Below, in pieces: positions 47,643-64,000 of a stretch of DNA of 64,000 nt. The DNA is from Bryobacteraceae bacterium. Lineage in GTDB: Bacteria; Acidobacteriota; Terriglobia; Bryobacterales; Bryobacteraceae. Numbering within the stretch: the first letter of the stretch is position 1; each line of letters opens with the position of its first letter. The notes under the pieces are model-generated. The model searched no databases and was not told the DNA's origin. It saw only the letters and a list, made by a program, of their open reading frames with translations. The DNA lies in contig JAHDVK010000013.1 in the NCBI GenBank assembly GCA_023384675.1, positions 62,001 through 126,000 of the forward strand, in the 5' to 3' direction. The translations under genes and the position numbers were made by a program.

Positions 47643-47651
47643 GCGTGTTTC

Positions 47652-48665
47652 CTAACTAGTGGGCACGGGCCGGGCCTCGAGCAGGCGGGTGAGGATGTCG
47701 TCGGGAGTGAGGCGGTCGCTCTCAGCCTGGAAATTGAGCAGGATGCGGTGGCGAAGGACAGCGCGCATCAGGGTCGTCACATCCTGGTAGGTCACGTGGT
47801 GGCGGCCATGCATGAGCGCACGCGCCTTCGAAGCGAGCACGATATTCTGAATGCCGCGCACGCTCGCACCGAAGTTCACATATTTCTTAACGAAATCCGG
47901 CGAGGAAGGATCCGTGACGCGCGTCGCTCGCACCAGAGCTACCGCGTAACGCGCGATGTCCTCCGATATCGGCACCATCCGCACAAGCTGTTGGAACTCG
48001 AGAATCTCTTCGGCGCTCGTCACTGGCTGCGGAGTGGCTTTCGCCGTAGTCGTCGTCAGGCCGATCACCCTGAGTTCGTCCTCGGGTCCAAGGTAGTCGA
48101 GAAGGGTATTAAAGATGAAGCGGTCGAGCTGCGCCTCGGGCAGCGGGTAGGTGCCCTCCAGCTCGATCGGGTTTTGCGTCGCAAGCACGAAGAATGGCGC
48201 GGGCAGGTTGTAGTGGTTGCCGCGCACGGTGCAGCTCAGCTCCTGCATGGCTTCGAGCAGCGCGGATTGAGTCTTCGGCGGAGTCCGGTTGATTTCGTCC
48301 GCGAGCACTATGTTGCCGAAGATGGGCCCAGGGACAAAGGTCCAGATGCGGCGGTTGGTCCCGGGTTCCTCTTCGAGGATGTCGGTGCCCGTGATATCGG
48401 AGGGCATCAGGTCGGGCGTAAACTGAATCCGCTTGAACGCCAGGCCGAGCGTCTGCGCCATGGTACGCACGAGCAGCGTTTTGGCGGTGCCCGGCAGGCC
48501 GGTGATCAGGCAATGGCCGCCCACGAACAGCGCGATCATGAGCTGTTCCAGCACTTCCTCCTGTCCGACAATCACCTTGCGGACTTCGCGCACGATGGCC
48601 TCTTTCACCTGCTGGAAGCGTTCGACGCGGGCTTTCAATGTGGTCAGATCGATTTCGCTGGTCAT
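47652..48665 (-). CDS. MoxR family AAA+ ATPase
   Basis: A 337-residue AAA+ chaperone. Walker A is GLPGTAKT at about 55-62, Walker B is VLADEINRTPPKTQSALLEA, sensor 1 is FFVLATQNPIELEGTYPLPE, and sensor 2 lies in the C-terminal helical lid. MoxR proteins mature or insert cofactors into VWA proteins; here the obvious clients are the DUF58, BatA-like and large VWA proteins of the same operon. Its ATG overlaps the metallopeptidase stop by four bases. Confidence 0.95.
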   Translation of the reverse strand: MTSEIDLTTLKARVERFQQVKEAIVREVRKVIVGQEEVLEQLMIALFVGGHCLITGLPGTAKTLLVRTMAQTLGLAFKRIQFTPDLMPSDITGTDILEEEPGTNRRIWTFVPGPIFGNIVLADEINRTPPKTQSALLEAMQELSCTVRGNHYNLPAPFFVLATQNPIELEGTYPLPEAQLDRFIFNTLLDYLGPEDELRVIGLTTTTAKATPQPVTSAEEILEFQQLVRMVPISEDIARYAVALVRATRVTDPSSPDFVKKYVNFGASVRGIQNIVLASKARALMHGRHHVTYQDVTTLMRAVLRHRILLNFQAESDRLTPDDILTRLLEARPVPTS

Positions 48666-50854
48666 GGTTTATTGCTTCGTTCCTTATTAATCTCCAGCAG
48701 GAGTTTCTGCGCCGGGCGGAATCCGGGCGCGTGCTCGAGCGAGTGAAGTATGTGCTCTTCCGCTTCCGGGACGCGTTTCAACGCAAAGTGCACGCGGGCC
48801 AAATCATAATGCGCGGTGGCCGGATCGGTGGGTGTGAGAGCGACGACGGCGGCGTACTCTTCGGCGGCGCCCGCCCAGTCGCCCGCCTCCGCGCGCAGGT
48901 CGCCGAGCTTCTTATGCAGCGGCTCATCCTTTACCGGATAGATCCACAGCAGGCGTTCGAGAGCCGCGCGGGCTTCGGCGGGATGGCCAAGTTCTTCTTC
49001 GAGTTCGGCGAGTTTTTTCAGCGATTCCGGATTGCGCCCGCCATGCTGCACGTAATCCCGAAGCTCCTTCGCGGCCGAAGCCTTGTCCTCGAGCGCCAGG
49101 AAAGAGAGGGCCCTCGCTTCATAGACGTTGCCCTTGTCCACATAGTCGGGATAAAGCGGCTTGAGCTCTGCCGCGATCTTCAGCGCATCCTCGTGGCGCT
49201 TCTCCATCCGCGCCTTGGTGACCTCGGGAGCGCGCTTCAGATACTCCTTATAGCCTCGGACGGAGGTTCCATGCTGCTCTTCGAGCCAGGCGAAAAACTG
49301 TTCGTCGAACTCCTCCGGCTTCAGACCCAGCACGCGCTCAATGACCGCGACGGTCGGCTCCGCCTTCGTGTACGCCTCGAGCATCTCCATCAGCTTGCCC
49401 CAGCCCCAGCGTTCATTCACGTAGTCGCAGAAGCGGCCGGCCTGGAAGTAGCTCACTACGACCTGGCCGGGGTACTCGGGACGGATAAAGCCGCGGTCGA
49501 GCTTCGCCACCGGCAGCAGTTTCTTCTCGGCCATCGCCCAGAGGATCTGCGGTGTGACTCGCTCGCCCCATTCCGGATTGACGGCCGTTTCTTCATGGAC
49601 CGCGAGGCCCTCGGTGAACCAGCGCGACACGCGGTGATTCGTACGGTGGAGCGTGAACACGTGGCTGAGTTCGTGCCACAGAGTGCTGGCCCAATGGTAG
49701 GAGCCCGGTTCGCGGCCTGAGGGGCTGTCCATGGCGATGGACATGACAAAGGTCACGCCCAGCGCGCCCAGGCCCGGCATCCCCATCGTGCGTACGGCGA
49801 AGTCCTCATGCAGCGGGTAGAACTCGATTTGCACGGGGCCGGGCAGCTTCACGTTGTATTTCTTCTCGAACACGGCGATCGCGCGCTCGGTCTCGCGCTC
49901 GACGTACGGCCGCAACAGAGCCGCCTCGCTCTTATGGAGGCGGAGAATGGCGTTCTTCGTACGAATCGTTTCGTAATTGCGCAGGCTGTCGAGGAGTTTG
50001 AGACTGTTGGCGGTCGCGGCATTCCGGAAGCCATTCTCGTAGCACTGCTCCAGCAGTTCCTGGGCTTCGCGGTCCTTGCCGACGCGCATCAGGTTGATGC
50101 CGAGTTCCGAGCGCGCAGCCCAGTTGTCGGGTTCGATTGCGATGGCCCTCTGGTACAGCTCGATCGCCTCTTCATAGCGGCGGTTGAGCACGTGCCAGTG
50201 GGCGATGCGGGCGTAACCCCGGCCATAGGCGGGGCTGGCGTCGTGCATCTTCTTGAGCCAGGGCGACTCGGGCTTGTCCGCCAGCAGGTCGATGGTGGCG
50301 TGCACGGCCATGGCGTCGAGGGCATGCGAATCCAGCGCCAGCGCCTTGTCCGCCTCCTCTCGCGCGCGCTCAAAGTCGCCATCTTCCAGGACCAGGCCGG
50401 CAATCAGTTCTTGCGCTTCAACCAGCTTCGGATCACTCTCGATGGCTTGCCGGGCGAGGTCGATCGCGCGGCGGTCGAATCCTTCGCTGAGGGAAACGGC
50501 CAGGCCCAACAGCGCGCCCGCATGGTCCTTCTTGAGTTCCAGTGCTTCCTGGAAGAGCTGGCCCGATTCCGTCACGTTGAAGCGCTCGAGCAACAGCCTC
50601 CCCCAGCGGACGCGTACTTCCGGGTCTTTCGGCTGTACCTTCACCGCCGACCGGAACACCGCGCCGGCCTCTTCATAGCGTCCCAAGCCCCAAAGACCTT
50701 CGGCCATCCCGGCCGGATTGAAGGAATCGAGGAGCTTCGTGAAGCAGGCCGTGGCCTCTGCGCCGCGGCTGAGCTTGCGCAGCTTCCAGCACTCGTCCGC
50801 GGGAGCGGCGAACGCAGTGAACGCCAATAAAACCAGGGGCAGCAGGCGCATCAT
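48662..50854 (-). CDS. TPR protein with a gluzincin metallopeptidase domain
   Basis: About 730 residues with a signal peptide (MMRLLPLVLLAFTAFA). N-terminal TPR repeats cover ~20-290, a peptidase_MA-like zinc domain covers ~300-510, and C-terminal TPRs run to the end. The HExxH site is His394-Glu395-His398 in LWHELSHVFTLH, with the distal glutamate in FTEGLAVHEE. Such domains are known from bacterial secreted proteases; here the TPR arms may hold partners. The start overlaps the caspase-fold gene stop by four bases. Confidence 0.88.
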   Translation of the reverse strand: MMRLLPLVLLAFTAFAAPADECWKLRKLSRGAEATACFTKLLDSFNPAGMAEGLWGLGRYEEAGAVFRSAVKVQPKDPEVRVRWGRLLLERFNVTESGQLFQEALELKKDHAGALLGLAVSLSEGFDRRAIDLARQAIESDPKLVEAQELIAGLVLEDGDFERAREEADKALALDSHALDAMAVHATIDLLADKPESPWLKKMHDASPAYGRGYARIAHWHVLNRRYEEAIELYQRAIAIEPDNWAARSELGINLMRVGKDREAQELLEQCYENGFRNAATANSLKLLDSLRNYETIRTKNAILRLHKSEAALLRPYVERETERAIAVFEKKYNVKLPGPVQIEFYPLHEDFAVRTMGMPGLGALGVTFVMSIAMDSPSGREPGSYHWASTLWHELSHVFTLHRTNHRVSRWFTEGLAVHEETAVNPEWGERVTPQILWAMAEKKLLPVAKLDRGFIRPEYPGQVVVSYFQAGRFCDYVNERWGWGKLMEMLEAYTKAEPTVAVIERVLGLKPEEFDEQFFAWLEEQHGTSVRGYKEYLKRAPEVTKARMEKRHEDALKIAAELKPLYPDYVDKGNVYEARALSFLALEDKASAAKELRDYVQHGGRNPESLKKLAELEEELGHPAEARAALERLLWIYPVKDEPLHKKLGDLRAEAGDWAGAAEEYAAVVALTPTDPATAHYDLARVHFALKRVPEAEEHILHSLEHAPGFRPAQKLLLEINKERSNKP

Positions 50855-51768
50855 TGCTCGAGCTCCTCTTGCAGTTGCGCAAGCTCGATCAACAGCGCGC
50901 TGAGCTGTTTGCGGTATTCCGGCTCCGGCATCGCCGCCTTTTCGTACTTCAGCTTGTCGATCGCCTGTTCGATCTCTTCCTTGCGCACCAGCAGTTTCTG
51001 CTTCGCCGGATCTCGCAGCGCCTCCTGAATCTTGCCGAACCGGACCACCTGGAAGCCCGCCGCCAGCAGTCCCTGCCCGTTCTCGGGCGAAGGGGCGCGC
51101 ACGGCCTCGCGCACGCCGGTGTCCTCCAGCATCGCGTGTTCCGTGGCGAGCCGCTGCTGCGTCTTGTAGAAGTCCGTTGTCTTTCGGTCGGCGTAGCGGT
51201 AGGCCTCCAGCGCACTCACCGTGCCGCTCTTGTCGGTGTCGGCGTTCGCGTCGCGGAACGCTTCCACCCAATACCGCGGAAACACCACCGCATTCTTCTC
51301 CATGCCCGAGCGTGTCGCGCTGACGAGCACCCGGTTCTCGCGCTTCAACGCCTCAATCGCCCCGCCGCTCGCGCTCGTGGCCAGCACCACAAGCTGACGT
51401 GCGGGTATGCGGTCCAGCCACGCGCCCAGTTCGGTCCCCGTCACATCCGGACCGGGGATGTTGAACTTGTATTCGAGTTGATCCCACGTGCCATGGCCGA
51501 TCAGCGTGAGGACGAAGGCATCGTCCCGCCTGGCGCCAGCGGCAACCTGGTCCAGCGCGGCCTTGATCGCGGTCTTCGTGGCCTGCGCTCCGGAAAGAGT
51601 TTGAACCTGCACGTCCTCGCCCGCCGCCAGCTTCTGCATATCGGCAACCAGCGCAGCGAACCGCGATTCATATTCCGGCTGGCCGCCCAGCCCGCCCACG
51701 ACCACATGCCAGGTCGCTCCTGGAAGCGCAGCCGCAAGCAACAACCCAAAGATCACAGCCCTCTTCAC
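50851..51768 (-). CDS. Caspase/legumain-fold protein with non-standard catalytic site
   Basis: About 305 residues with a signal peptide after a GTG start (MKRAVIFGLLLAAALPGA). The fold of peptidase C13/caspases is suggested by LTLIGHGTWDQLEYK (histidine) and VVLATSASGGAIEAL where the Cys of DACxSG would lie; here that place is Ser, so the canonical nucleophile is absent. A calcium-loop-like DANADTDKSGTVSALEAYRY follows, then a coiled-coil tail. The GTG overlaps the VWA gene stop. It may be a pseudoprotease or serine variant; related sequences lacking the cysteine seem common in this family. Confidence 0.65.
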   Translation of the reverse strand: MKRAVIFGLLLAAALPGATWHVVVGGLGGQPEYESRFAALVADMQKLAAGEDVQVQTLSGAQATKTAIKAALDQVAAGARRDDAFVLTLIGHGTWDQLEYKFNIPGPDVTGTELGAWLDRIPARQLVVLATSASGGAIEALKRENRVLVSATRSGMEKNAVVFPRYWVEAFRDANADTDKSGTVSALEAYRYADRKTTDFYKTQQRLATEHAMLEDTGVREAVRAPSPENGQGLLAAGFQVVRFGKIQEALRDPAKQKLLVRKEEIEQAIDKLKYEKAAMPEPEYRKQLSALLIELAQLQEELEQ

Positions 51769-54017
51769 ACCGCCCCCCAGCGCCGCCGCAGCAGCCACTC
51801 CGCGGCCTTCAATCCCGCCAGCAGCAGGAACATGAGCGGTACATCCCACAAATCGTGCGTCTCGCGGACCGATAAGCCCGCCTCACTGAAGTCGATCTCA
51901 TCCACCAGATCGCCTGCGTTCTTCACCGTGAAATACCGCCCGCCCGTCTGTGTGGCGAGCCGTTCCAATAGCTCACGATTCTGCTCGGTGCGGAAGTTTT
52001 CCGCCACTCCGTCCTCTCGCCGGAACGTCGCCACATCGCGCCCAATCTCGCGTTCGCCGCGGTGCGCAACCATTTCCACCAGGTACGATCCCGGCTCGCC
52101 CGCCTGCCATTCGGCCGCGTACTGGCCGGGCGTCTGTGGATCAGGCAACAGGGCCACGCTGTCTGCGAGCCCACCCGGCCCCAGCAGACGCGCTTCCGCC
52201 GTTGCATCGGCGAGCGGCAGATAGTTATTGTCCCGGATATCGGCGCGCAGCTGAATCCGGGCGGCATCGCTGATCACTGTGCTGCTGGTGAGCGCGGTGA
52301 CACGCCCGCGCGTGTCGGCCGCAAGCCAGCGCAGCATCTGCTGCCAGAAACGTTCGTGCGAGGTGTCCTTCGAATCCTGGAGCATCTGCCATTTCCAGGT
52401 CCCTCCCGTGGCCAGAACCGCCACGCGCCCACGCCCGTAATTCTGCGTCACCAGCAGCGGCGAACGGCGGCCCGTTCCCGGGTTGTACTGCGCCAGCACC
52501 ATGGCGCCGGGTTTTGGCGAACCCACCTCGTGATAGTCGCCCAACGGAGGCAACGACTTCCAGCGCGCCGCGTTCTGCGCCAGGTTGTCTTCGAGCCGCG
52601 TGATCAGGCTGTCCATGCCGCGGTCGGTCAGTTCCGCCTTCGCCGGTTCACGATGAAACGTCGTCTTCCGCGCTGGCAGGTTGACCGGCAGCATTTCCGA
52701 CACCGGCGTCGCCTGCCACCCGCCTTCGCCAAACGAAGCGCGCCCGCCGAGAAACAGCACGCCGCCTCCGCGCCGGTCGGCGAATTCGCGAATCAATGCC
52801 TGTTGCGGCCCGCTGAAATAGGCGGCTTCCACCGTGCCGATGATCAGCGCTTCATAGGCGAATAGTTCATCCACGCTGCCGGGGAAACCATCCGCCAATT
52901 CACCTGGCTCCGCGATCCCCTGGCGGTAAACTTTGTTCTGCGTCGTGCGGAGGATGCTGACCAGTTCGAGATTCTTGTCTTCCTCCACGGCGCGCCGAAT
53001 GAACTTCATCTCCCACCGCGGTTCGCCTTCGATGTAGAGAATCCGCGGGCGCCGGTCCTCCACGTTTACCAGCCGGGTCGCGGTGTTGTTGGCGCGATTT
53101 GTTTCGGCCTCCTGTGGCTCCACCGTGAATTGAAACGCCCGCGCACCGGGTTCGCCGCTCTGAAAGGAGATCGTCTCGATGGTCTGTTTTCCGTCGGCAT
53201 CCAGCCGGATCTGGCGCGAAGCCAGCACCTTCTGCCCGTCGCGCACGGTCAGCGTCGCCGCCCCGCCCGCGAACCCATGCTGGCGGATCGTGACATACGC
53301 GTTCAGCTTCGTACCCGGCAGCGAACGCGCCGGCACCTGCACCGCGAACACCTCGATGTCATTCACGGGCTTCTCGCGCCCCACGCCAATCGTATGTACC
53401 GGCAGCCGCGCGGCGCGCAGTGACGCAATGGTTTCCTGATCCAGCCCGCCATCGTTGTCCGCGCCGTCGGACACCAGTACGACCGCCCCAATCGGCAATG
53501 TCGAAGCCTCGCCGGCGGCCGCCTTCAGCGAGTCCCCCAGCCGCGTGGCCGGCTCCACCGCATCCACCGCGCCCAGATCCTCCACGCGCTTCAGGCCCGA
53601 ACCCGCGGCATAGAATCGCACCGGGTACTTCTCGCGCAGCTTCTCGACAAGCCCGCCATCCAGCGCCGCTTTCGCCACATCCAGACGCCGGCGCCCGTCC
53701 TCTTCCAGCGCCATGCTCAGCGAGTTATCCACCACCACCGCAACCACGTTTTGTTGCGAACGCAACGTGGCGACGCTCAACGCCGGCTGCCACAACATCA
53801 GCAGCAGCAGCGCCACAACGGCGCACTGCAGACCGGCCAAAGCGGAGGCGCGCAGTGTCCCTTGCCACTTTTCCCGCCGCCGCAGGAACAGCCATAACAG
53901 GTAGCCCGCCGCTCCGGCTGTCAGCAGCGCCAGCAGCCACACAGGCCACCCGCTGAGAAACACGAACGTCCCCTTGCGGTACATCGCCCAAGGGTATTTG
54001 AGAAGGAATTCGAACAT
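51765..54017 (-). CDS. Large membrane VWA protein
   Basis: A 750-residue protein with two N-terminal helices (VWLLALLTAGAAGYLLWLFL and ALAGLQCAVVALLLLMLW). A VWA domain with MIDAS VVDNSLSMALE follows at about 93-105, then beta domains, and a class I glutamine-amidotransferase-like fold around residues 360-560 (ALIIGTVEAAYFSG, RRGGGVLFLGG). The family is annotated as a putative glutamine amidotransferase, but a catalytic triad is not evident. It begins 21 bases after the DUF4159 gene and is probably a MoxR client. Confidence 0.86.
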   Translation of the reverse strand: MFEFLLKYPWAMYRKGTFVFLSGWPVWLLALLTAGAAGYLLWLFLRRREKWQGTLRASALAGLQCAVVALLLLMLWQPALSVATLRSQQNVVAVVVDNSLSMALEEDGRRRLDVAKAALDGGLVEKLREKYPVRFYAAGSGLKRVEDLGAVDAVEPATRLGDSLKAAAGEASTLPIGAVVLVSDGADNDGGLDQETIASLRAARLPVHTIGVGREKPVNDIEVFAVQVPARSLPGTKLNAYVTIRQHGFAGGAATLTVRDGQKVLASRQIRLDADGKQTIETISFQSGEPGARAFQFTVEPQEAETNRANNTATRLVNVEDRRPRILYIEGEPRWEMKFIRRAVEEDKNLELVSILRTTQNKVYRQGIAEPGELADGFPGSVDELFAYEALIIGTVEAAYFSGPQQALIREFADRRGGGVLFLGGRASFGEGGWQATPVSEMLPVNLPARKTTFHREPAKAELTDRGMDSLITRLEDNLAQNAARWKSLPPLGDYHEVGSPKPGAMVLAQYNPGTGRRSPLLVTQNYGRGRVAVLATGGTWKWQMLQDSKDTSHERFWQQMLRWLAADTRGRVTALTSSTVISDAARIQLRADIRDNNYLPLADATAEARLLGPGGLADSVALLPDPQTPGQYAAEWQAGEPGSYLVEMVAHRGEREIGRDVATFRREDGVAENFRTEQNRELLERLATQTGGRYFTVKNAGDLVDEIDFSEAGLSVRETHDLWDVPLMFLLLAGLKAAEWLLRRRWGAV

Positions 54018-54038
54018 GGAAGGGTGGCGGGTGCTCTC

Positions 54039-54842
54039 CTAGTGGGTCATCGCGTAGATGATGTTGTTGATGGCCACGCGATAGGCCAGCGACGCATATT
54101 TTTCGGGGTAGCGCGGATGATCCGCCCATTCCCAGGCGTCACCCAGGTCCATATTGTGGCAAATGGCCATCACGACACGGCCCCGCTCGTCGCGCATGGC
54201 ACGCCAGCGCGCTTCAAAACCGTCGTACTCGTGGGTCTTGTCGAAGGGGAAATTCACAATGCCCGGGACCTGAAAGCGCTCGCTCAGGTCGTACAGCACG
54301 TGAAAGATCGGGTCGTCGTCGGCCAGGTCTTCGATGGTACGGTCCGGGAATCCCCGCTGAATACTGTTCATGAAAACGCTCCACTCGAACGTGCCATGAA
54401 AGTCATCGGACATCAGAAAGCCGCCCCGGTCGGTGTACTCCCGCAGTTTCTTCGCCTGAGCTTCGGGCAGATCCCAGTGGCCCGGTTCGACGACGTACAC
54501 GAACGGGTAGTTGTAGATATCGTCACTGACCAGATCCACCACATGCTCCACCGCTTTTGTGTGAATCCGCGTCAACCGGCGCAGGCCTTGCAGGAATGTG
54601 CGGTCCGCCTTGGGATAATCCACGCTCCACGAACCCCGCATCGCCCACATCCCGCTGGCCCTCAACGACGGATACCGCAGCCTCGCCCAAACGAACTCCG
54701 TCTTCTCCGCCGCATCCGAGGGCAGCACAATCATGTCATCGTCGTCCTCGCGGAAGATCTCGCGGATCCGCCGCTGGCCATACAGCGCGGCCGCAAGCAT
54801 TGTCAACAGGATCACAGCGGCCAGGATGGACCGGTGGCGCAT
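54039..54842 (-). CDS. DUF4159 domain protein
   Basis: About 267 residues from the ATG at 54842 (GGGGAGGG upstream; another ATG 21 bases earlier is possible). A signal peptide/anchor (HRSILAAVILLTMLAAAL) precedes the DUF4159 domain: FVWARLRYPSLRASGMW, NYPFVYVVEPGHWDLPE, TDRGGFLMSDDFHGTFEW, and the end AYRVAINNIIYAMTH. DUF4159 is regularly found with MoxR/VWA clusters and has a class I GATase-like core. It is the first gene of the eight-gene operon. Confidence 0.88.
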   Translation of the reverse strand: MRHRSILAAVILLTMLAAALYGQRRIREIFREDDDDMIVLPSDAAEKTEFVWARLRYPSLRASGMWAMRGSWSVDYPKADRTFLQGLRRLTRIHTKAVEHVVDLVSDDIYNYPFVYVVEPGHWDLPEAQAKKLREYTDRGGFLMSDDFHGTFEWSVFMNSIQRGFPDRTIEDLADDDPIFHVLYDLSERFQVPGIVNFPFDKTHEYDGFEARWRAMRDERGRVVMAICHNMDLGDAWEWADHPRYPEKYASLAYRVAINNIIYAMTH

Positions 54843-54902
54843 TAGCCCTCCCCTCGTTGGCACAAGGATATCATTTCGCCCTTCCCTGTTGGATGTAAGG
54901 TC

Positions 54903-55002: not shown

Positions 55003-55863
55003 TTATGCCGCCAGTAGACCGCGTAGATTCCAGCCGCAGATCACACTAGCCTCGAACTTGTTGTTGTTCGGCCCCTGCCAGTGCGTCTCCAGGCTCACCG
55101 CGCCCTTGTACCCGTCGCGCATGAGCGCGGCAATCTGGCCCTTCCAGTCCACCCGGCGGGTGCCCACCGGCCCCCACACCGGAGTATGGCCTTCCATGTG
55201 GCAATCTTTCGCATGAACATGCACGATGCGGTTCTTTGGCAGCAGATCGTAGCCCGCCGGGAATGGATCCTCGCCGGCCACCAGCATGTTCGCCGGGTCC
55301 CACACCAGTTGCAGGTTCGGGTGTTGCACAGCGTCCAGAATCACTTTCGCCTCGGCGGCGGTGCCCACGTTGCACGCATGTTCGTTTTCCAGGCCGATGA
55401 TCACGCCGTGCGGCTTCGCCTGGTCCGCGAGCTTCGTCACCGCTTCGCACACGGCATCCACGCACTTCTCCGGCTCCACCGTGCGCCAGTAACTGAACAC
55501 GCGGATGATCTTCGCCCCGGTCATCTCCGTCAGTTTGAGCGCACGCTCCATCAGCGCGGGCTGCGTTTCGAAGGTGTGTTTCGAGGCGAACACGTCCTGC
55601 TGAAAGCGCGTATCCACCTCCGGTCCGCCCGGCAGCACGCACTTCAGCAGCGGCGAGGCGATCGAAAGCACCTTCATGTTGCGCGCGTTGATCAACTCCA
55701 TCGCGCGCTTCACCTCACCGTCGCTGAGGTCCATGATGTTCTTGCCCCACACGACCCGCAGTTCGGCTCCCGTCATGCCGATGGCGGCCATGGCGTCGAG
55801 CGCGGGCTCCAGGTCGGGAGTGAATTCGTCGGTGATTGCGGCTAGTTCGAGTTTCGGTTGCAT
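55003..55863 (-). CDS. Sugar phosphate isomerase/epimerase (TIM barrel)
   Basis: About 286 residues of the xylose isomerase-like TIM-barrel superfamily, without a signal peptide. The metal-ligand positions appear in IIGLENEHAC (Glu), LVWDPANML (Asp), IVHVHAKDCHM (His) and GAVSLETHW (Glu). Hydroxypyruvate, inososose or 3-keto-sugar isomerases all share this pattern. It is a distant relative of the protein at 3652-4560. The ATG at 55863 is five bases after the CRTAC1 stop, making it the last gene of the operon. Confidence 0.88.
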   Translation of the reverse strand: MQPKLELAAITDEFTPDLEPALDAMAAIGMTGAELRVVWGKNIMDLSDGEVKRAMELINARNMKVLSIASPLLKCVLPGGPEVDTRFQQDVFASKHTFETQPALMERALKLTEMTGAKIIRVFSYWRTVEPEKCVDAVCEAVTKLADQAKPHGVIIGLENEHACNVGTAAEAKVILDAVQHPNLQLVWDPANMLVAGEDPFPAGYDLLPKNRIVHVHAKDCHMEGHTPVWGPVGTRRVDWKGQIAALMRDGYKGAVSLETHWQGPNNNKFEASVICGWNLRGLLAA

Positions 55864-55868
55864 GGAAC

Positions 55869-57527
55869 TTACTTCTTGACTATACCCAAAGGCTCGGCCC
55901 CCTTGCCTTCGGTCACCAGCAGGCGCCGGTTCACGGGCGGATTCGCGATGCGCTGCTTCGCGCCGCTGGGCCACTCAATCTCGAGTGCCGCAATGCGAGA
56001 ATCCCTACCGAGCCCGAAGGTTACGGCCAGATCGCTCTGGCTCAAATACGAAGAACCCGAATGCACCATGCGCCATTGTCTGCCCGACGCGCTATCCACC
56101 CGCACCACCGCCCCGATGCCGTTCCGGTTCGACTTCGCCCCCCGCAGCCGTACCGAAATCCAATTGTGCTTCGCCGTGTTAGCGTCGTTGCGCAGTAGAT
56201 AAGCCGGCCCGTGGTTCGTGGTGATCAGTACATCCAAATCGCCGTCGTTGTCGAAGTCGCCGTACGCCGCCCCGCGCGCCACGATCGCCCTCCCCAGGTC
56301 CGGCCCCAGCTTCGCCGTCACCTCCTCGAACTTGCCCTTACCCAGATTCCTGAACAAGTGCGGCGGCTGTGCGAAGCTCACCTTCGGCTGCACCCGGCTG
56401 ATCTCTTCGTCGATATGCCCATTGGCCGCGAACAGATCGATCCAGCCGTCCAGGTCGTAGTCGAAGAAAAAGACCCCGAACGCCAGCGTCAACAGCGACG
56501 CGCGCCCCACCGTCGATCTCGGCGCCTCATCCACGAACAGCCCGTTGCCTTCGTTGTGATACAGCCCCACCATCTGATTCGAGAAATTGCCCACGGCCAG
56601 ATGCGGGCGCCCGGAACGGTCGTAGTCCGCCGCGTCCACGCCCATCGCGCCTCGCGCCACGCCGTCCTCGCCAAATGCGACCCCCGCCGACACGCCCTCC
56701 TCCTTGAACATCCCGTTCTTCTGGTTCATGTAGAGCTTGTTCGGCTGCGTGTCGTTGGCTACAAACAGGTCCGGCCAGCCGTCCTGGTTCACATCCAGCA
56801 CCGCCACACCCAGGCTCTTGCTTGTCGCGTCGCCCACGCCCGCCTTCTGGCTCACATCCTCGAACTTGCCGTTGCCCAGGTTGCGGTAGAGCTTCGAAGA
56901 GGCGCCCCGGTAGCTCTCCGGCGTGCAATAGGACTTCGTGGAGCCATCCAGCGAACACCACAAATCGCCCTTCTGCGACCATTGCACGTAGTTCGCGACA
57001 AACAGATCCAGCCGGCCATCGCGGTCGAAGTCCAACCACGCCGCGCTCGTGCCGAAGTTCGCGTTCGCGATCCCCGCTGCCTTCGTCACGTCCTGGAACT
57101 TGAACCCGCCCATATTCTTCAGCAGCCGGTCGCCTTCCAGCGCCGTGATATACAAATCGTCGCGCCCGTCGTTATCGAAATCGCCCACCGCCACACCCAG
57201 CCCGTAGATCTCCACATCAAGGCCGCTGCCCTTCGTCACATCCGTGAACGTTCCATCGCGGTTATTGCGGTAGAGCGCCGACGTGGACCTGCGCCCCGCG
57301 CGCGGCGTCCAGTCCCGGCTGTTGATCAGCACAATATCAAGCCACCCGTCGCCATCCGCGTCCACAAACGCGCACCCCGAACCCATCGTCTCCGGCAGCC
57401 ACTTCTTGCCGGCCTTCCCCGCATTGTGCCGGAACGCGATGCCCGCCGCCTTGGTGACATCCGTGAAGCGCGGAGCGGTTTGCGCCGCCGCCACGGCGGC
57501 CGTGATCAGAATCAGAAGAAGTCTCAT
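55869..57527 (-). CDS. CRTAC1 family FG-GAP/ASPIC-UnbV protein
   Basis: A 552-residue secreted protein (signal MRLLLILITAAVAAAQ). A beta propeller built of FG-GAP/VCBS repeats shows repeated calcium loops such as DADGDGWLD, DFDNDGRDD, DFDRDGRLD and DVNQDGWPD. The C-terminal ASPIC/UnbV domain is marked by NDANTAKHNWISVRLRG, NRNGIGAVVRV and IEWPSGAKQRI. Such proteins bind integrins or surfaces in eukaryotes; the bacterial role is not established. It overlaps the cytochrome gene by four bases. Confidence 0.93.
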   Translation of the reverse strand: MRLLLILITAAVAAAQTAPRFTDVTKAAGIAFRHNAGKAGKKWLPETMGSGCAFVDADGDGWLDIVLINSRDWTPRAGRRSTSALYRNNRDGTFTDVTKGSGLDVEIYGLGVAVGDFDNDGRDDLYITALEGDRLLKNMGGFKFQDVTKAAGIANANFGTSAAWLDFDRDGRLDLFVANYVQWSQKGDLWCSLDGSTKSYCTPESYRGASSKLYRNLGNGKFEDVSQKAGVGDATSKSLGVAVLDVNQDGWPDLFVANDTQPNKLYMNQKNGMFKEEGVSAGVAFGEDGVARGAMGVDAADYDRSGRPHLAVGNFSNQMVGLYHNEGNGLFVDEAPRSTVGRASLLTLAFGVFFFDYDLDGWIDLFAANGHIDEEISRVQPKVSFAQPPHLFRNLGKGKFEEVTAKLGPDLGRAIVARGAAYGDFDNDGDLDVLITTNHGPAYLLRNDANTAKHNWISVRLRGAKSNRNGIGAVVRVDSASGRQWRMVHSGSSYLSQSDLAVTFGLGRDSRIAALEIEWPSGAKQRIANPPVNRRLLVTEGKGAEPLGIVKK

Positions 57528-60274
57528 GGCAGGGGAATGCTCTCGTGTTCGTGAATCGCCTGGCGTTCGTTGTTGTCCTCGGGACTCACCATCCGCCGCT
57601 TCGCCGTGATCGCCTGCGCCGACTCATCCGCCTTGAACCTCCGGAAGAGACGCTCGTGCTTGCGCATCCTCTCCATATCGCCCAATCCGCGGTACGCCAG
57701 CATCAGGCTGTAATGCGCCTGCACATCCTCCGGGTCCACCGCCAGCACCGCCCGGAACGCCCGCGCCGATTGGGCGTAGTCCCTCTGTAAGAACAAAAGC
57801 CGGCCCAATTGATTTTGCACCACACGGTCGCGCGGATACTGCCCCGTCACCTGACGCAGCAGCGCGATCGACGCCTCGTATTCGCCCGCCGCCTTCTCCA
57901 CCAGCGCTAGAAAGTACTGTGCCCGCGCCAGTCCCGGGCTTAGCTTCAGCGCGCGCTCCAGCAGCGGCCGCGCCTCTTCCGTCTCGCCTTCCTGGATCAA
58001 GGCCCGCGCGATGTTTACCCAGCCATCGGGATAGTCGGGGTCCGCCTCCGTCACCTTGCGGAACGCGTATTCGGCCCCTTTCAGATCGCCCTGCAGCAGC
58101 AGCCCGATTCCCCAGTCGTTCCAGCGTTCGCGGTCCAGCGTGCGCACCAACGGAAGCCATTCTGGCTCCGCGCCGCGCGGCCCCAATTCCAGCTTCGTCT
58201 CCGCCTGCGCCAGCGTAACGATCGGCAGTGCCGGAATCCGCCCCTTCACGCCGCCCGCCACGTTCGCCGGAATGTTCTCCGGCGAATAATCGTACTCCCG
58301 GCTGTCGTAATGCAGGCTCACCAGCCGCGGATCCTGCCCCGGCGCCGCGTGCCCCGCGTAGGCGAATCGTGTGTACTGCCACGAGAACTTGCGGTGGTGG
58401 AGCTTCGCCGTCAGTGTAATCGGCCCCTCAGCATCCTGCGGGATCTTCATCCGGTACCGCACTACGTCCGCCGCCCCCGGCGGTATCAACCGCACATACA
58501 GCAGGCTGCGCGCCTGCCACGCATTGCGTTTGTCAATCGGATTCCCGTCGCCATCCAGCATCAAGGACCGGTAAAAATGCGCCCCCGGATCCACCGGTCC
58601 CCGCCCCTCGTCCTCCACCCGGCCGCTCCAGAAAACCGTCCGCCCCTTCGCGTCCCTTCCCACCAGTTCCAGCCAGACGTCGAACGCATCCACCGTGCCG
58701 CCGGGGAAAAAGTGTCCGATCTTGCGCGTGCGCACCACCACATCCACCCGCACCGTGTCGCCGGGCCGGAACCGAGTCCCCGCTTGATCCAACGGCGCAG
58801 CTACCTTACCCACCTCGCGCAGGAAGACCGGCGCGGCCGTGTCCGCCTCCTCGCCGACAGCGAACGTCGTCATCGCCTCCTGCGGCCGGTCGCCTGCCCG
58901 TCGCACCATCTGCAGGCCGCCGCCTTCCTCGGCCGGGGAGGCCGCGAAAATATCCACGGTTATAAACCCCGATTTCAAAAAGCCCTCGGCGGCCTTCAGT
59001 TGCGTCTCGTCTCCATTGACAAACGGAACCGCCGTGTTCGCCGTCGCAAACCGGTGCGAATGCACCATCCCGTTCCGGTGACCGGGGTCTCGCGAAGGAA
59101 CCAGCGGCATATGGCAGTCCGCGCACGTTTGCGGTTTCGCCGGGTAATAGAACGAGCGCGCTCCCTGCCCCGAAACCCCGCTCGCCTGCCAGTTATCGTA
59201 ATCGTTAAATCCCCGCAGCCAGCGGTAATGATTGACGGGCTGATCCAAATGCACTTTGTGGCAAGCCGCGCAGAATTCGGCGGAATCTTCGCGCATAAAC
59301 GGCTTAATAAACGTTCGCCGGTGCGGCTCGGGATCCAGGTGTGTCAACAGCCGGTCCAGCGCCCGCATATACGGGTTCCGGCTCGCCGCCAGTTCGTGCA
59401 GCTTCGGGTACTCCAACGTGAACCCGCCATTGCCCATACTGCTGTCCACATGCACGATCGAGTGGCACGACACGCAGCCCAGCCCCGTATGCGCCTCCGC
59501 CGTTTCGAGTTGCTCCCTAACCGGCTGCTCCCACTTGCCGGAAAAAAGCATCGCGTGGTCGTGACATCCCGCGCACCATTTACTACTCTGAGTGCCGGAA
59601 ATATCCTGCATGTGTTCAATTGATTTCCTGTAAAACTGGTTATTAAACGACGACAAATGATGCATCGAAGAGCGCCACTGCTCGTAAATAGTTTTATGAC
59701 ATTCGCCGCATAATTGCGAGTCCATGAAGAACTCCGCCGGCACCGTCCCCTTCACATTCGTTCGCGCCGCCGAAGGCCAGAACGGCGACTGCGGCCCCCC
59801 GCCCTCCTCCTCCATCGACTCTGGCGCTTCCTCCGGATTCCGGATTCGCTCTGAAGGGTCCGGCCACATCGCGCCCACGCTCATCGCCACCACCGCGAAC
59901 GCCGCCCCCGCCCCAAACGCCCACTTCAAACCCGGCCACCGCACCGCCGGGATCAACAAAGCCACTCCCGCAAAACTCACCAGCACATGCGCCCATAGCA
60001 GCCACCGGAACTCGAGCAACGCCCCCGTCCACGCCAGCGCGCCCCCCAGCGCCGCCCCCGCAAACAGCACCGCCGCCGCGAGCTTCGCCCGCTGCCGCAG
60101 CTCCACTGACCGCCACAGCAGCCACGCGAACGCCCCCGCCGCAGCCGCGCCCAGCGCCAGATGCGCCAGCACGTTCGCCATGTAAAAGATCGTTGGCGAG
60201 GCGAACGCCAGCAGGTAAAACGAATTCAGCAACAGCGCCAGCCCCAGTGCTGCCGCCACGCGCTTTGCCGTCAT
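57524..60274 (-). CDS. Membrane-anchored five-haem cytochrome c with TPR domain
   Basis: About 916 residues. About five transmembrane helices occupy the first ~130 residues. The periplasmic part carries five CxxCH haem sites: CGECH, CAGCH, CVSCH, CAACH and CADCH between about residues 190 and 390. A beta-rich domain (~430-640) and five or more TPRs (~720-890) follow. Additional histidines near the haems could be axial ligands. This is a multihaem electron carrier, with an unknown partner. The ATG at 60274 overlaps the previous gene stop; the open frame upstream is antisense-like and rejected. Confidence 0.86.
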   Translation of the reverse strand: MTAKRVAAALGLALLLNSFYLLAFASPTIFYMANVLAHLALGAAAAGAFAWLLWRSVELRQRAKLAAAVLFAGAALGGALAWTGALLEFRWLLWAHVLVSFAGVALLIPAVRWPGLKWAFGAGAAFAVVAMSVGAMWPDPSERIRNPEEAPESMEEEGGGPQSPFWPSAARTNVKGTVPAEFFMDSQLCGECHKTIYEQWRSSMHHLSSFNNQFYRKSIEHMQDISGTQSSKWCAGCHDHAMLFSGKWEQPVREQLETAEAHTGLGCVSCHSIVHVDSSMGNGGFTLEYPKLHELAASRNPYMRALDRLLTHLDPEPHRRTFIKPFMREDSAEFCAACHKVHLDQPVNHYRWLRGFNDYDNWQASGVSGQGARSFYYPAKPQTCADCHMPLVPSRDPGHRNGMVHSHRFATANTAVPFVNGDETQLKAAEGFLKSGFITVDIFAASPAEEGGGLQMVRRAGDRPQEAMTTFAVGEEADTAAPVFLREVGKVAAPLDQAGTRFRPGDTVRVDVVVRTRKIGHFFPGGTVDAFDVWLELVGRDAKGRTVFWSGRVEDEGRGPVDPGAHFYRSLMLDGDGNPIDKRNAWQARSLLYVRLIPPGAADVVRYRMKIPQDAEGPITLTAKLHHRKFSWQYTRFAYAGHAAPGQDPRLVSLHYDSREYDYSPENIPANVAGGVKGRIPALPIVTLAQAETKLELGPRGAEPEWLPLVRTLDRERWNDWGIGLLLQGDLKGAEYAFRKVTEADPDYPDGWVNIARALIQEGETEEARPLLERALKLSPGLARAQYFLALVEKAAGEYEASIALLRQVTGQYPRDRVVQNQLGRLLFLQRDYAQSARAFRAVLAVDPEDVQAHYSLMLAYRGLGDMERMRKHERLFRRFKADESAQAITAKRRMVSPEDNNERQAIHEHESIPLP

Positions 60275-63200
60275 CGCCCCCCTCCCCGCTGCGTCCCGTC
60301 CGACGCCAGCGGCCGCAACAGCCGCAGCGCCCGTCGTGTATTCCACTTCGCCCGGTACTCGCGCAATTCCTCGCTCTCCGGGTACCGCTGATGCGCCGGA
60401 TACGGATAGCTCTCCATCCCATGGAACGGCAGCGGCTCCACGGTCTGAGAGAAGGCTGTATTCGCGTCCCGGTCCTTCGCCCAACCCACGACCTTCAACA
60501 GAAAATCGCGCTTCCACCCGGTGGGCAGCGGCGGCAGCGTCCCGGCCTCATACTCCAGCCGCAACTCGTCGCCCGACCCGAACACCACCAGTTTGTTATC
60601 CGAAGCCCGCAGCAACTCCGCCACCGGCCCGTAGCGCGTGTACATGCCCGGCGTCGGATTCCACAAAGAAGCCATCAGCGGCTGGCCGTAAAAAAACATT
60701 TCCGGCTGTTTTCGTTGTGGATGAATCAGCGTCCGCGCAAAACCCCGGAACCGCAGGCCCGCCCGCGCCGGCTTCAGCGCCGTCAGCCGCGCCTCCGGCT
60801 CGCCCGCGTCTTCACTCAGGAAGATCTCGTCCCAGAACACGCACAAATTCGTCACAATCCGCAGTTCCCGCCGCTCCCCGATGAACTTGCCCGTCAAATC
60901 CACCGCGATCGTCTTCGGCTTACCCGCCGGCATGCCCATGTCTTCGATCACCGTCACCCATTCTCCGCGTTCGTCCTTTGCCTGCAAATACGGAGGAACC
61001 AGCCCTGCGCGCGTTTCCTGCGCCTGCGCCAGGAAGGTGCTGCCATCGGCCCAATCCACCCACCCATGCAGAATCAGCACCGCGCGGTTCGCCTGCGCCG
61101 CGCCCCTGAAATCCAATTCCAGCGTGTGCATCGCCGCCACGCCTTGCAGGTTGTGTTCGAACCCATCGGGGTACCGGCGGTCACGCCGCCGCACCCGGTC
61201 CGTCACGTCGCGCCGCCCATCCTCCAGCGCCTGCCGCGGATACACCTTCTCGCGCGCCCCAAACAGCCGGAACTCCGGAAACGGCGGCGCCTTCCACTTA
61301 TCGTTCGTGAACACCTCCATCCCGGCCGGATGGTCCACCGCGATCAGCTCTACCTCATCCACATAGCTGACCTCGCTCAACTCCTCCGTCACGCGCACCT
61401 CATACCCCCCGCCGCGCGGCTTCAGCCGCGAACCGTCGATCCAGATGTACTCATCATGGTCCACCGGAAAGTAGGTGCCATCGCCCGCCGCCGCGCCCAG
61501 CGGAGCCACGCCCAGCACGTCCGTGATGTATTCGAACTCGCGCCCGTTCCACGTCCAGATCAATGGACAAGAGCCCGACAGCCGCTGCGCCTCCTCATAA
61601 CGGTATGCCGCGCCCGCCTTCTGCCGCATTTCGTTTTGGATCAGCCCGTTCGGCCAGGTGATGCGCACCGTCTCCGCCAGCGGCTCGCCGCGCATACCGA
61701 ACAGCAGCGGCACGCCGCGGTACGTCTGCTTCTGATACAGAAGCCCCGCCTTCACCTCCACTTCCGCCCCCGGCGCCAGTTTCAGGTTCTTGATACCGGC
61801 CAGTTGCACGTTGAGCCAGTTGCCCATTCCTTCGGTCTGGTTCAACGCCCGCTGCACGCGCCCCTGCTCCGTCACCCACGCCACATCGACGCGGCCATCG
61901 CCGTCGAAGTCGGCGGCGGCATACACCGTGCCCGGCAAAAGCCCGTCCACCTGCACCGCGCCGCCCCACCGGCCTTCGCCCAGGCCGCGCGCCACGCCCC
62001 GTGCCGTCACCACATCCAACAGCCCTCGGTTCGCGAAGTCGCCCAGCGCCCCGGGCCGCCCCGGCCATCCGGTCTGCCGGAAACCGGCAGCCTCATTCAG
62101 CGCCGCGCCCTCGGCCCACAAAAGATCCGGACGTCCGTCGTTGTTGACATCCGCCGCCTTCAACTGCGCCGCCCCCGCCGGCAGGGCCTCGATCGTCACC
62201 GCCTCATACTGCGCCCCCAGCCGGTCGCGATACCAGACGCCGGCCCGGTCCTTGTAGGAAACGATCACGTCGTGCGCCTTCGTGTCCGGCGTCACCCGCG
62301 TCACGACACCCGACACCGCCTCGCCCGGCCCGAAGGGAAAATCCCCGGACCGGTCCGCGAATCCCGCCTGGCCCTGGTTTCGCAAAAGCACGCTTTTCTG
62401 CCCCAGAAGCAGCAAATCGAGGTCATAATCGTGGTCAAAATCCACCCAAACCGCCGCGTTGAAGCCCGCGTCGGGCATTTTCGCGCCGTGCCTTCTGAAC
62501 GTGCCGCGCTCGTTCCGGAACAACAGCGGCCCTTTGTGCGTCACCACGCACAAATCCGCCCAACCATCGTTGTCGAAGTCCCCCGCAGCCACGCTGACCA
62601 CGTATTCCAGGCCCTCCAGGGCCGGCTGCCGGGACGGGGTCATCCCCTTCAAATACACCGCCACGCCCCGCGAACTCGCCACCACCAGATCTGCCAGCCC
62701 GTCGCCGTCCACATCCATCACTTCGAGTTGCGCCGACGCCGGATCGGTCTCCCCCGCCGCCGGTTCCGCCGCCGCAAACCGCGGCGCCGCAGCCACGCCC
62801 GCATCCTTCGACCGCCCCGACTCGATCGCCTCCACCAGTTCCGAGTACATGCTCCATTCCACGTCCTCGTTGCCCGCCCCGGCGGCCTCCTGCCGCTTGC
62901 GCAGATCCTGGAACCGGGCAAACTCGCGCTTGGCTCCCTCCGCCTTGCCCGACTGCCGGTAAGCGTTGAATAATTGAAAATGGGGCGCGGCGAAATATGG
63001 ATCTAATCTCGCCGCCAATTCGAATTTCTTTAGCGCCTCGTCCCCGCGATCAGCCAATTTATACAAAACGCCCAGGTTGTATTGCGTGATCGGCTCCGCC
63101 GGGTCCAACTGCGCCATCCGCTCCAACTGCGCGATCGCCCGCTCCGTCTCACCCAGTTTCTTCAGCTCGATTCCAAGGTTGAACCAGGTGTGCGGCAGCG

Positions 63201-63501
63201 ACGGATCCGCCTTCTGCACCGCCTCCAGTTCCCGCATCCCCTCTTCCGTACGCCCCGCCCGCAATAGCGCCAACCCATAATTCAGACGGTCCGGCAGCGA
63301 CTCCGGACGCAGCGCCCACGCCGCCCGCAACTGCTCCGCCGCCTCTGCCTGCGTCGTGGGGTTCTCGTAAAATGCCTTGCCCAGCGTCCTCGCCCGCACC
63401 AGACGCTCGTCCAATGCTCCTTCACCGCTGCCCTGCCCGAGTACGACAAACGCCAGCGCCACCGTCCCTGCCAGCGCCGGGAACCAGCCCCAGTTCTTCA
63501 T
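60271..63501 (-). CDS. Large TPR/FG-GAP/ASPIC protein
   Basis: About 1076 residues from the ATG at 63501 (MKNWGWFPALAGTVALAF), a signal peptide or anchor. TPRs occur at about 40-190 (LPHTWFNLGIELKKLGETER, ITQYNLGVLYKLADRGDEA). FG-GAP-type repeats with DVDGDGLAD, DFDNDGWAD, DFDHDYDLD and DFDGDGRVD cover ~240-500, then an ASPIC/UnbV-like end (EGMGNWLNVQLAG, VRITWPNGLIQNE). The last ~500 residues have no recognised domain; RLSGSCPLIWTWNGREFEY opens that part. It is the first gene of the cytochrome operon. Confidence 0.82.
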   Translation of the reverse strand: MKNWGWFPALAGTVALAFVVLGQGSGEGALDERLVRARTLGKAFYENPTTQAEAAEQLRAAWALRPESLPDRLNYGLALLRAGRTEEGMRELEAVQKADPSLPHTWFNLGIELKKLGETERAIAQLERMAQLDPAEPITQYNLGVLYKLADRGDEALKKFELAARLDPYFAAPHFQLFNAYRQSGKAEGAKREFARFQDLRKRQEAAGAGNEDVEWSMYSELVEAIESGRSKDAGVAAAPRFAAAEPAAGETDPASAQLEVMDVDGDGLADLVVASSRGVAVYLKGMTPSRQPALEGLEYVVSVAAGDFDNDGWADLCVVTHKGPLLFRNERGTFRRHGAKMPDAGFNAAVWVDFDHDYDLDLLLLGQKSVLLRNQGQAGFADRSGDFPFGPGEAVSGVVTRVTPDTKAHDVIVSYKDRAGVWYRDRLGAQYEAVTIEALPAGAAQLKAADVNNDGRPDLLWAEGAALNEAAGFRQTGWPGRPGALGDFANRGLLDVVTARGVARGLGEGRWGGAVQVDGLLPGTVYAAADFDGDGRVDVAWVTEQGRVQRALNQTEGMGNWLNVQLAGIKNLKLAPGAEVEVKAGLLYQKQTYRGVPLLFGMRGEPLAETVRITWPNGLIQNEMRQKAGAAYRYEEAQRLSGSCPLIWTWNGREFEYITDVLGVAPLGAAAGDGTYFPVDHDEYIWIDGSRLKPRGGGYEVRVTEELSEVSYVDEVELIAVDHPAGMEVFTNDKWKAPPFPEFRLFGAREKVYPRQALEDGRRDVTDRVRRRDRRYPDGFEHNLQGVAAMHTLELDFRGAAQANRAVLILHGWVDWADGSTFLAQAQETRAGLVPPYLQAKDERGEWVTVIEDMGMPAGKPKTIAVDLTGKFIGERRELRIVTNLCVFWDEIFLSEDAGEPEARLTALKPARAGLRFRGFARTLIHPQRKQPEMFFYGQPLMASLWNPTPGMYTRYGPVAELLRASDNKLVVFGSGDELRLEYEAGTLPPLPTGWKRDFLLKVVGWAKDRDANTAFSQTVEPLPFHGMESYPYPAHQRYPESEELREYRAKWNTRRALRLLRPLASDGTQRGGGR

Positions 63502-63617: not shown

Positions 63618-64000
63618 TTACTGCACCAGGATTGTCGCCCGGTTCGACAACACGGGCTGAGGCGTCACACCCGCGGGCGGTATCTGCGACACCACCACTT
63701 CCGCCGTCCCGGCGACTCCGGCCGGCACGGTCAGCACCACCCGGTTCAGACCCGCAACCCCCGGCCAGGCTGTCGCCCGAACGCCGGTCGCGGCCCTGCC
63801 TCCAATGCTCACTTGCAACGGTCCGGCCACCATCGCCTCGGGATCCGACGGCGCGTATTCGCCCGTCGTCAACCCCGGCAGCACCTGGCCCAGACCGGTC
63901 ATCAGCAGCGCGATCGAGTCCCCGGCCTGCGCCGGATTGCCCGGCCCGATCAGCGACATGTCGCTGACCCGAAACGCAATCGCCCCCACTTCGTCGAAGT
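63618..64000 (-). CDS. C-terminal fragment of a secreted protein with a TIGR03437-like domain
   Basis: About 126 residues to a TAA at 63618; the frame is open to the window edge, so the gene continues outside. The pattern GDSIALLMTGLGQVLPGLTT, VSIGGRAATGVRATAWPG, VAGLNRVVLTVPAGVAGTAE and a final SNRATILVQ fits TIGR03437, the C-terminal domain first noted in Solibacter, an Ig/IPT-like module on many secreted proteins. The N-terminal function is not visible. Confidence 0.78.
   Translation of the reverse strand, partial: FDEVGAIAFRVSDMSLIGPGNPAQAGDSIALLMTGLGQVLPGLTTGEYAPSDPEAMVAGPLQVSIGGRAATGVRATAWPGVAGLNRVVLTVPAGVAGTAEVVVSQIPPAGVTPQPVLSNRATILVQ

Follow-up and report, generated by a model that had tools for sequence, protein, structure and literature searches.

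The window analysed here is a stretch of 64,000 bp from contig C32 of the 5.73-Mb draft genome of a Bryobacteraceae bacterium (Acidobacteriota). By open reading frame positions, its minus strand, on which all features given below lie, holds four genes in a run from 63501 down to 55003. O1 (60271..63501, 1076 amino acids) overlaps O2 (57524..60274, 916 amino acids) by 4 bp in an ATGA sequence, there is a second such overlap between O2 and O3 (55869..57527, 552 amino acids), and 5 bp separate O3 from O4 (55003..55863, 286 amino acids). Over the Pfam cut-offs are TPR and FG-GAP in O1, TPR and Cytochrome_C554 in O2, FG-GAP and ASPIC in O3, and PF01261 in O4, which is a xylose-isomerase-like TIM barrel of the sugar isomerase/epimerase kind and for which no NCBIfam model scores over its cut-off. 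An earlier note on this DNA had described a four-gene operon for a membrane five-haem cytochrome with TPR, two FG-GAP/ASPIC proteins, and a terminal sugar isomerase, and each part of that description is borne out here, the ASPIC domain of O1 being divergent.

O1, O2, and O3 form a three-gene core that is widespread in the Acidobacteriota and that keeps together through rearrangement. In a set of 150 genomes of the order, the source genome among them, strong matches to O1 are present in at least 117 of the 149 others and to O2 in at least 116, with both in at least 108 and the two adjacent (one strand, within 400 bp) in at least 74. These are lower bounds, since fragmented O1 matches (G108, G114, G133) went uncounted, though the loci L088, L085, and L084 show the pair. 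The earlier note had proposed that the gene order be compared in relatives; the order O1-O2-O3 is seen in many of the regions fetched from the order, so that, some exceptions apart, the genes are not scattered. That the trio recurs in relatives indicates that its arrangement is not due to chance. Among the literature on UnbV/ASPIC proteins and cytochromes, no published description of this trio was found.

A locus set was made of the best 80 of at least 582 confirmed O2 relatives, and all counts out of 80 loci refer to it; 78 carry acidobacterial names, while L161 and L231 have other submitter labels. An O3-type gene lies behind O2 within 800 bp in 72 of the 77 loci that have at least 400 bp of room (71 inside the 700-bp limit of the script, and L236 at 763 bp), and was not found there in L182, L208, L215, and L217, where room is present, or in L237, which had 743 bp. 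O1 is directly upstream of O2 in 41 of 72 loci and downstream in 9 more. There are thus two gene orders, O1-O2-O3 and O2-O3-O1, the latter in nine of the 80 loci; it is also seen in L134 and L153, both from other classes. In a phylum set of 297 genomes, again including the source genome, an O1-type protein (E ≤ 1e-60) is present in 100 and an O2-type protein (E ≤ 1e-40) in 89, and of 35 O2 orthologues from outside the order, 11 have an O1-type gene that is at most 7 kb away and in the same orientation. The O1-O2 pair of L128 (G265), from another class of the phylum, is as close to that of the window as are many members of the order (O2 61% identical), and between-class transfer of the operon is possible in this case. 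Runs of additional O3-like CRTAC1 genes of about 30% identity occur near the trio genes in L067, L079, and L086.

O2 begins with a membrane domain (59855..60274), for which the AlphaFold model, made with 66 O2 sequences, has five transmembrane helices at residues 2-23, 29-55, 64-83, 87-111, and 114-136, mostly with a predicted local distance difference test score (pLDDT) of at least 90; the remainder of the model is the extracytoplasmic part. In the alignment A5 (65 of 73 near-full-length locus sequences plus the window), the only residues invariant in all 66 sequences between positions 1 and 140 are His38 (codon 60161-60163) and His96 (codon 59987-59989), and every O2 sequence of the 80 loci that covers the respective position has them (74 of 74 and 75 of 75). 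Each is nine residues past a helix start. With five helices and the c-haem part outside, the N-terminus would be inside and both histidine-bearing helices would start at the periplasmic face, with which the loop charges are in mild agreement. In a second alignment (A6) of 12 chosen O2, paralogue, and stand-alone DUF4405-type sequences, the invariant columns are His38, Gly77, and His96 only. A DUF4405 protein has been found to bind haem b in vitro (PMC11334425). Because the two histidines align with those of DUF4405-type b cytochromes, the membrane domain of O2 probably holds one b-haem.

Distant relatives offer a further view of this domain. Of 18 plasmid records with a match to the cytochrome part of O2, seven contexts were examined. 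In Shinella HZN7 and in Nitratiruptor, relatives of 24–25% identity occur with imelysin, DUF4405-type, and FTR1 genes, and in L254, L255, and L257 the pentahaem cytochrome is in one gene set with a DUF4405-type membrane protein and the iron permease FTR1; in Aeromonas a relative of 24% identity is beside DUF4405-like and FTR1 genes. The record of Shinella PSBB067 is unannotated. The membrane b-type and pentahaem proteins are separate neighbours in Shinella HZN7, Nitratiruptor, and Aeromonas and are fused in O2, which supports the b/c pairing.

These iron-operon relatives suggest that iron might be a substrate of O2, which would then reduce or oxidise iron for uptake, as the relatives themselves probably do. 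Against this, FTR1 and imelysin relatives are present at none of the 80 O2 loci by tblastn, and there are relatives outside such gene sets, in Granulicella and in the Sulfurovum and Leptospira contexts, where no imelysin, DUF4405-type, or FTR1 genes were seen. A role of O2 as an iron-redox module of this kind therefore appears improbable.

The membrane domain is followed by the pentahaem domain (58985..59734), with CxxCH motifs at 59696-59710, 59561-59575, 59462-59476, 59258-59272, and 59111-59125 that account for all ten cysteines of O2. Of 80 O2 sequences, 78 have every motif intact, the exceptions being L227, which is cut off before the first motif, and L223, where the fifth reads CxxCR. 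Cytochrome c assembly genes are encoded in the source genome. In the PDB, the O2 model is best matched by the Thermochromatium tepidum pentahaem cytochrome c552, 5ze8 (Foldseek E 4.4e-8; by VIA, Z 15.6 over 337 aligned residues at a root-mean-square deviation of 4.4, model residues 181-695, the next entry having Z 6.9). The match spans both the haem domain and the C-terminal beta domain of 5ze8, and takes in a beta-sandwich region of O2 (58175..58984, about residues 431-700). A TPR region (57635..58132, about residues 715-880) and a conserved C-terminal tail, EDNNERQxIHxHES (57539..57580), complete the protein. Identity of the window O2 with NrfA, NrfB, MtrC/F, or NapC was considered and set aside, all scores being below cut-off.

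The pentahaem domain could instead be the site of catalysis. O2 would then be a multihaem enzyme with a reactive haem, the O3 propeller would shape the substrate channel, as is presumed of the beta-propeller subunit in hydrazine synthase, and the b-haem would link the enzyme to the quinone pool. There are weak profile matches of O2 to MccSep (E 0.0023) and MccA (E 0.58). However, seven extra histidines (H205, H293, H318, H342, H407, H521, H566) are present in every one of the 80 O2 sequences and could saturate all five c-haems, and no substrate gene recurs near O2 in the 48 loci of at least 15 kb. In these loci the other clustered families reach at most eight of the 48, so that no recurrent extra neighbour was seen by a clustering that undercounts, O2 itself being recovered in 38 of the 48 and only O4 being identified among the smaller families.

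O3 is of the CRTAC1 family (E 6e-23 against human CRTAC1, 9etn) and has a signal-peptide-like N-terminus. O1 is probably exported as well; a hydrophobic stretch is present at the N-terminus of most O1 and O3 orthologues, as judged by a simple hydrophobicity scale and not by a signal-peptide program. In O1 a TPR region (62902..63384, about residues 40-200) precedes FG-GAP repeats (61837..62715, about residues 263-555), the divergent ASPIC domain (61582..61824, about residues 560-640), and a conserved C-terminal beta region (60304..61581, residues 641-1066) that has no Pfam domain in the window protein. The ASPIC domain is below the Pfam cut-off in the window protein (E 0.013), and is matched at E ≤ 1 by 46 of the 47 family members in the alignment A4 (46 of 48 locus sequences plus the window), with a best E of 4.6e-16.

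Residues 540-1076 of O1 were modelled as all-beta with a pLDDT of 84. In the model the ASPIC part is Ig-like or CnaB-like, and residues 728-900 resemble galactose-binding, CBM32-like jelly rolls; since the VIA Z scores are a middling 7-9, the CBM-like and Ig-like labels are leads. For the C-terminal region, a profile search of the PDB gave no match and Foldseek gave low TM-scores only. A match of the ASPIC region to chain 6hif_Y of the hydrazine dehydrogenase complex (Z 9.1, 75 aligned residues) was not retained, as Ig-like entries of unrelated proteins score within 1 of it.

In contrast to the trio, O4 is an optional passenger outside the core. It is behind the trio in 12 of the 66 loci with room, directly behind O3 in nine and 0.9-2.3 kb away in three, and within the order it is found in this place in L066, L070, L073, L076, L078, L080, L083, L088, and L092. 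By a simple hydrophobicity measure O4 lacks an export segment, so that it is probably in another compartment than O1-O3. Alternatively, the operon could serve sugar oxidation, with O4 and the carbohydrate-binding-like domain of O1 handling a sugar whose oxidation feeds O2. In favour of such a pathway are the tight spacing of O4 behind O3 in some genera, the CBM32-like fold of O1 residues 728-900, and a distant Granulicella locus near sugar genes. The low frequency of O4, its apparent lack of an export segment, and the middling scores of the O1 fold make such a pathway very unlikely, and the link to sugar oxidation drawn in the earlier note is not upheld.

Taken together, the linked genes, the haem motifs, the conserved histidine pair, the fold match, and the export-like N-termini lead to the prediction that O1-O2-O3 encode an electron-transfer complex of the inner membrane that is linked to quinone and has CRTAC1 partners, for which we would put the probability at a little under 0.6. 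O2 would be its redox core. Its five-helix domain, related to DUF4405 and b561, would hold a single b-haem close to the periplasmic side, with His38 and His96 on either side of the haem, and would be fused to a TPR platform and to a c-type pentahaem module that has the fold of T. tepidum c552. The CRTAC1 propeller O3 and the larger O1, with its TPR, propeller, ASPIC, and carbohydrate-binding-like beta domains, would be exported and dock on O2, where they may position an electron acceptor or donor. The likeliest path of electrons would be from menaquinol to the b-haem, through the five c-haems, and on to a periplasmic or extracellular acceptor.

Several observations weigh against this prediction. 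A6 combines sequences that are only weakly similar, and its Gly77 is present in only 55 of the 66 O2 sequences of A5. The DUF4405 scores are weak (E 0.03 for the paralogue; 7e-5, 2e-7, and 0.014 for the stand-alone relatives), and PF14358 (DUF4405) is absent from the best 25 of 67 families for O2. The trio is not always complete or contiguous: O2 is missing in L091 and O3 in L077 and L094, O1 is separated from O2 in L090, L095, and L086/L087, and the called O2 of L073 starts without the membrane domain. In G038 (L071, L072), O1 is on another contig than O2. In 22 of the 72 loci with upstream room, O1 was not scored by the script; some of these loci are short, and L228 has an O1-type gene below the score limit. 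No O1-type gene is on the same strand within 7 kb of 24 of the 35 O2 orthologues outside the order, and two genomes of the same genus are without strong O1 or O2 matches, so that the trio is dispensable.

The association of multihaem cytochromes with ASPIC proteins extends beyond the trio. The O2 homologues examined in 15 regions, with identities of about 30-40%, form two further pentahaem families. In one, the cytochrome has the membrane domain and no TPR, the TPR usually being on the FG-GAP/ASPIC partner (L243 has a partner without TPR, and in L244 the partner is cut off); in the other, the TPR is on the cytochrome, and L239-L241 have no room for a membrane domain. An FG-GAP/ASPIC gene adjoins the cytochrome in 14 of 14 testable regions, L246 ending inside the cytochrome and the partner in L249 being a fragment. 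In the same genome as the window there is a second pair of a cytochrome and an FG-GAP/ASPIC-TPR gene (L002:3906-8506), with CX4CH as its first haem motif. The Granulicella tundricola plasmid pACIX901 (L253) has a CRTAC1 gene, a TPR-pentahaem protein, a cytochrome c, two more CRTAC1 genes, a TPR gene, and a TonB receptor, with sugar genes beside them.

Proximity was assessed in five complete or near-complete genomes, the draft G000 being left out, with 20,000 random placements. Of 24 C554 loci, 14 have an ASPIC gene at a distance of 5 kb or less, against 1.04 expected, and none of the 20,000 trials reaches 14. The ASPIC matches number from 5 to 56 per genome among the six genomes searched, the 56 being in the 6.2-Mb genome of G005; without this ASPIC-rich genome, 8 of 16 C554 loci are near ASPIC against 0.37 expected. 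When the five trio loci are left out, 9 of 19 are still near ASPIC (at most 0.94 expected); when G005 is left out too, it is 4 of 12 (0.31 expected). As the five genomes are related, the C554 loci are not independent.

The pairing also bears on catalysis. CRTAC1 genes have been reported to flank homologues of hydrazine synthase subunits (PMC12758564), and in G104 (L260:6585-13740) a CRTAC1 gene is followed by a gene for a 932-aa protein and then by a propeller gene and an ABC binding protein. The 932-aa protein has two C554 domains, a beta-propeller, and a CCP/MauG-like region, and it matches the hydrazine synthase beta (E 3e-37) and gamma (E 4e-15) subunits. Judged by its sequence, L260 is a hydrazine-synthase-like cluster in an acidobacterium. 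A C554/ASPIC spacing like that of the G104 cluster is also seen in G039 and G049. That CRTAC1 genes adjoin hydrazine-synthase-like genes both in print and in G104 favours O2 as a catalytic enzyme; set against the histidines that may fill the c-haems, it leaves catalysis unlikely, if the least unlikely of the alternatives to the electron-transfer complex.

G104 also carries the whole operon: at L080, CHRD is followed by O1-O4 and then by DUF4159. G104 is probably Paludibaculum fermentans, a species that reduces Fe(III) (PMC8407742), and a cultured Fe(III) reducer would then carry the operon. This is consistent with a surface or extracellular electron conduit to Fe(III) or other solids, as is the grouping of c552 with the AvECN nanowire, ExtKL, and Gsu2801 in a paper on cable bacteria (PMC11976967). 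O2 is, however, anchored by five predicted transmembrane helices and there is no porin in the operon; MtrB_PioB was found in none of six genomes, in a search confined to this barrel type and in which the control genomes also scored below the cut-off. Such a conduit seems about as improbable as the iron-redox module. The surface electron-transfer assembly of the earlier note therefore stands in so far as a membrane multihaem cytochrome has two propeller-type partners, and not in its placement at the surface, and its alternative of surface sensing finds no counterpart in the four proteins, none of which has a Pfam sensing domain.

The predicted electron-transfer complex may belong to a class that has yet to be named. 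We suggest tentatively, and with the odds somewhat against it, that the Acidobacteriota have a class of quinone-linked multihaem complexes, built of a pentahaem b/c membrane cytochrome, CRTAC1 propellers, and swappable TPR arms, in which the CRTAC1/ASPIC proteins would be partner subunits of multihaem enzymes and not adhesins. These bacterial relatives of a human cartilage protein are numerous in these bacteria, and no assigned role was found for them in the literature examined; their statistical tie to multihaem cytochromes offers one that is testable. The trio might serve bacteria of soils and wetlands as an outlet for electrons, and it is probably carried by a cultured organism.

Two features adjoin the operon. 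The 3' end of a CHRD/TIG protein gene (63618..64000) is upstream of O1 and runs past the edge of the window; a CHRD relative is present at 9 of the 80 O2 loci. Just downstream, at 41129-54863, is a gene set of MoxR AAA, DUF58, BatA, VWA-like, and DUF4159 proteins, and DUF4159 with its 750-aa neighbour is likewise behind the operon in L070, L078, L080, and L092.

Among known systems, NapC, NrfH, and CymA are quinol dehydrogenases and are like O2 in its proposed role of passing electrons from quinol to periplasmic haem. O2 is of another family, with five transmembrane helices and a probable b-haem, and the NapC/NirT profile matches it weakly (E 0.32 for the window, 0.0005 for the best member). 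The DUF4405 membrane b cytochromes share with O2 the aligned His38, Gly77, and His96, invariant in the 12 chosen sequences, whereas O2 is fused to a c-haem module and, compared with DUF4405/b561-type cytochromes, has one histidine pair and not two. T. tepidum c552 likewise has five CxxCH motifs, the last followed by Met-Pro, and a C-terminal beta domain, to which O2 adds the five-helix membrane domain and TPR; the motif spacing is 45/33/68/49 in O2 and 54/28/98/31 in c552. The PHC family (ExtKL, Gsu2801, and the PHCs of cable bacteria) differs in that O2 is paired with CRTAC1 genes and has no ExtI-type porin in its operon, the comparison with ExtKL and Gsu2801 being by way of c552 and the published grouping.

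On the side of the partners, human CRTAC1 (9etn) and other CRTAC1/ASPIC-UnbV proteins have, like O3, FG-GAP repeats followed by ASPIC, and O3 differs from the human protein in that its gene is almost always beside that of a multihaem cytochrome (72 of 77 loci). In the hydrazine-synthase-like clusters (PMC12758564), a CRTAC1 gene is beside a c554-domain haem protein as it is in the trio, while a Pfam scan found neither a beta-propeller nor a CCP/MauG domain in O2.

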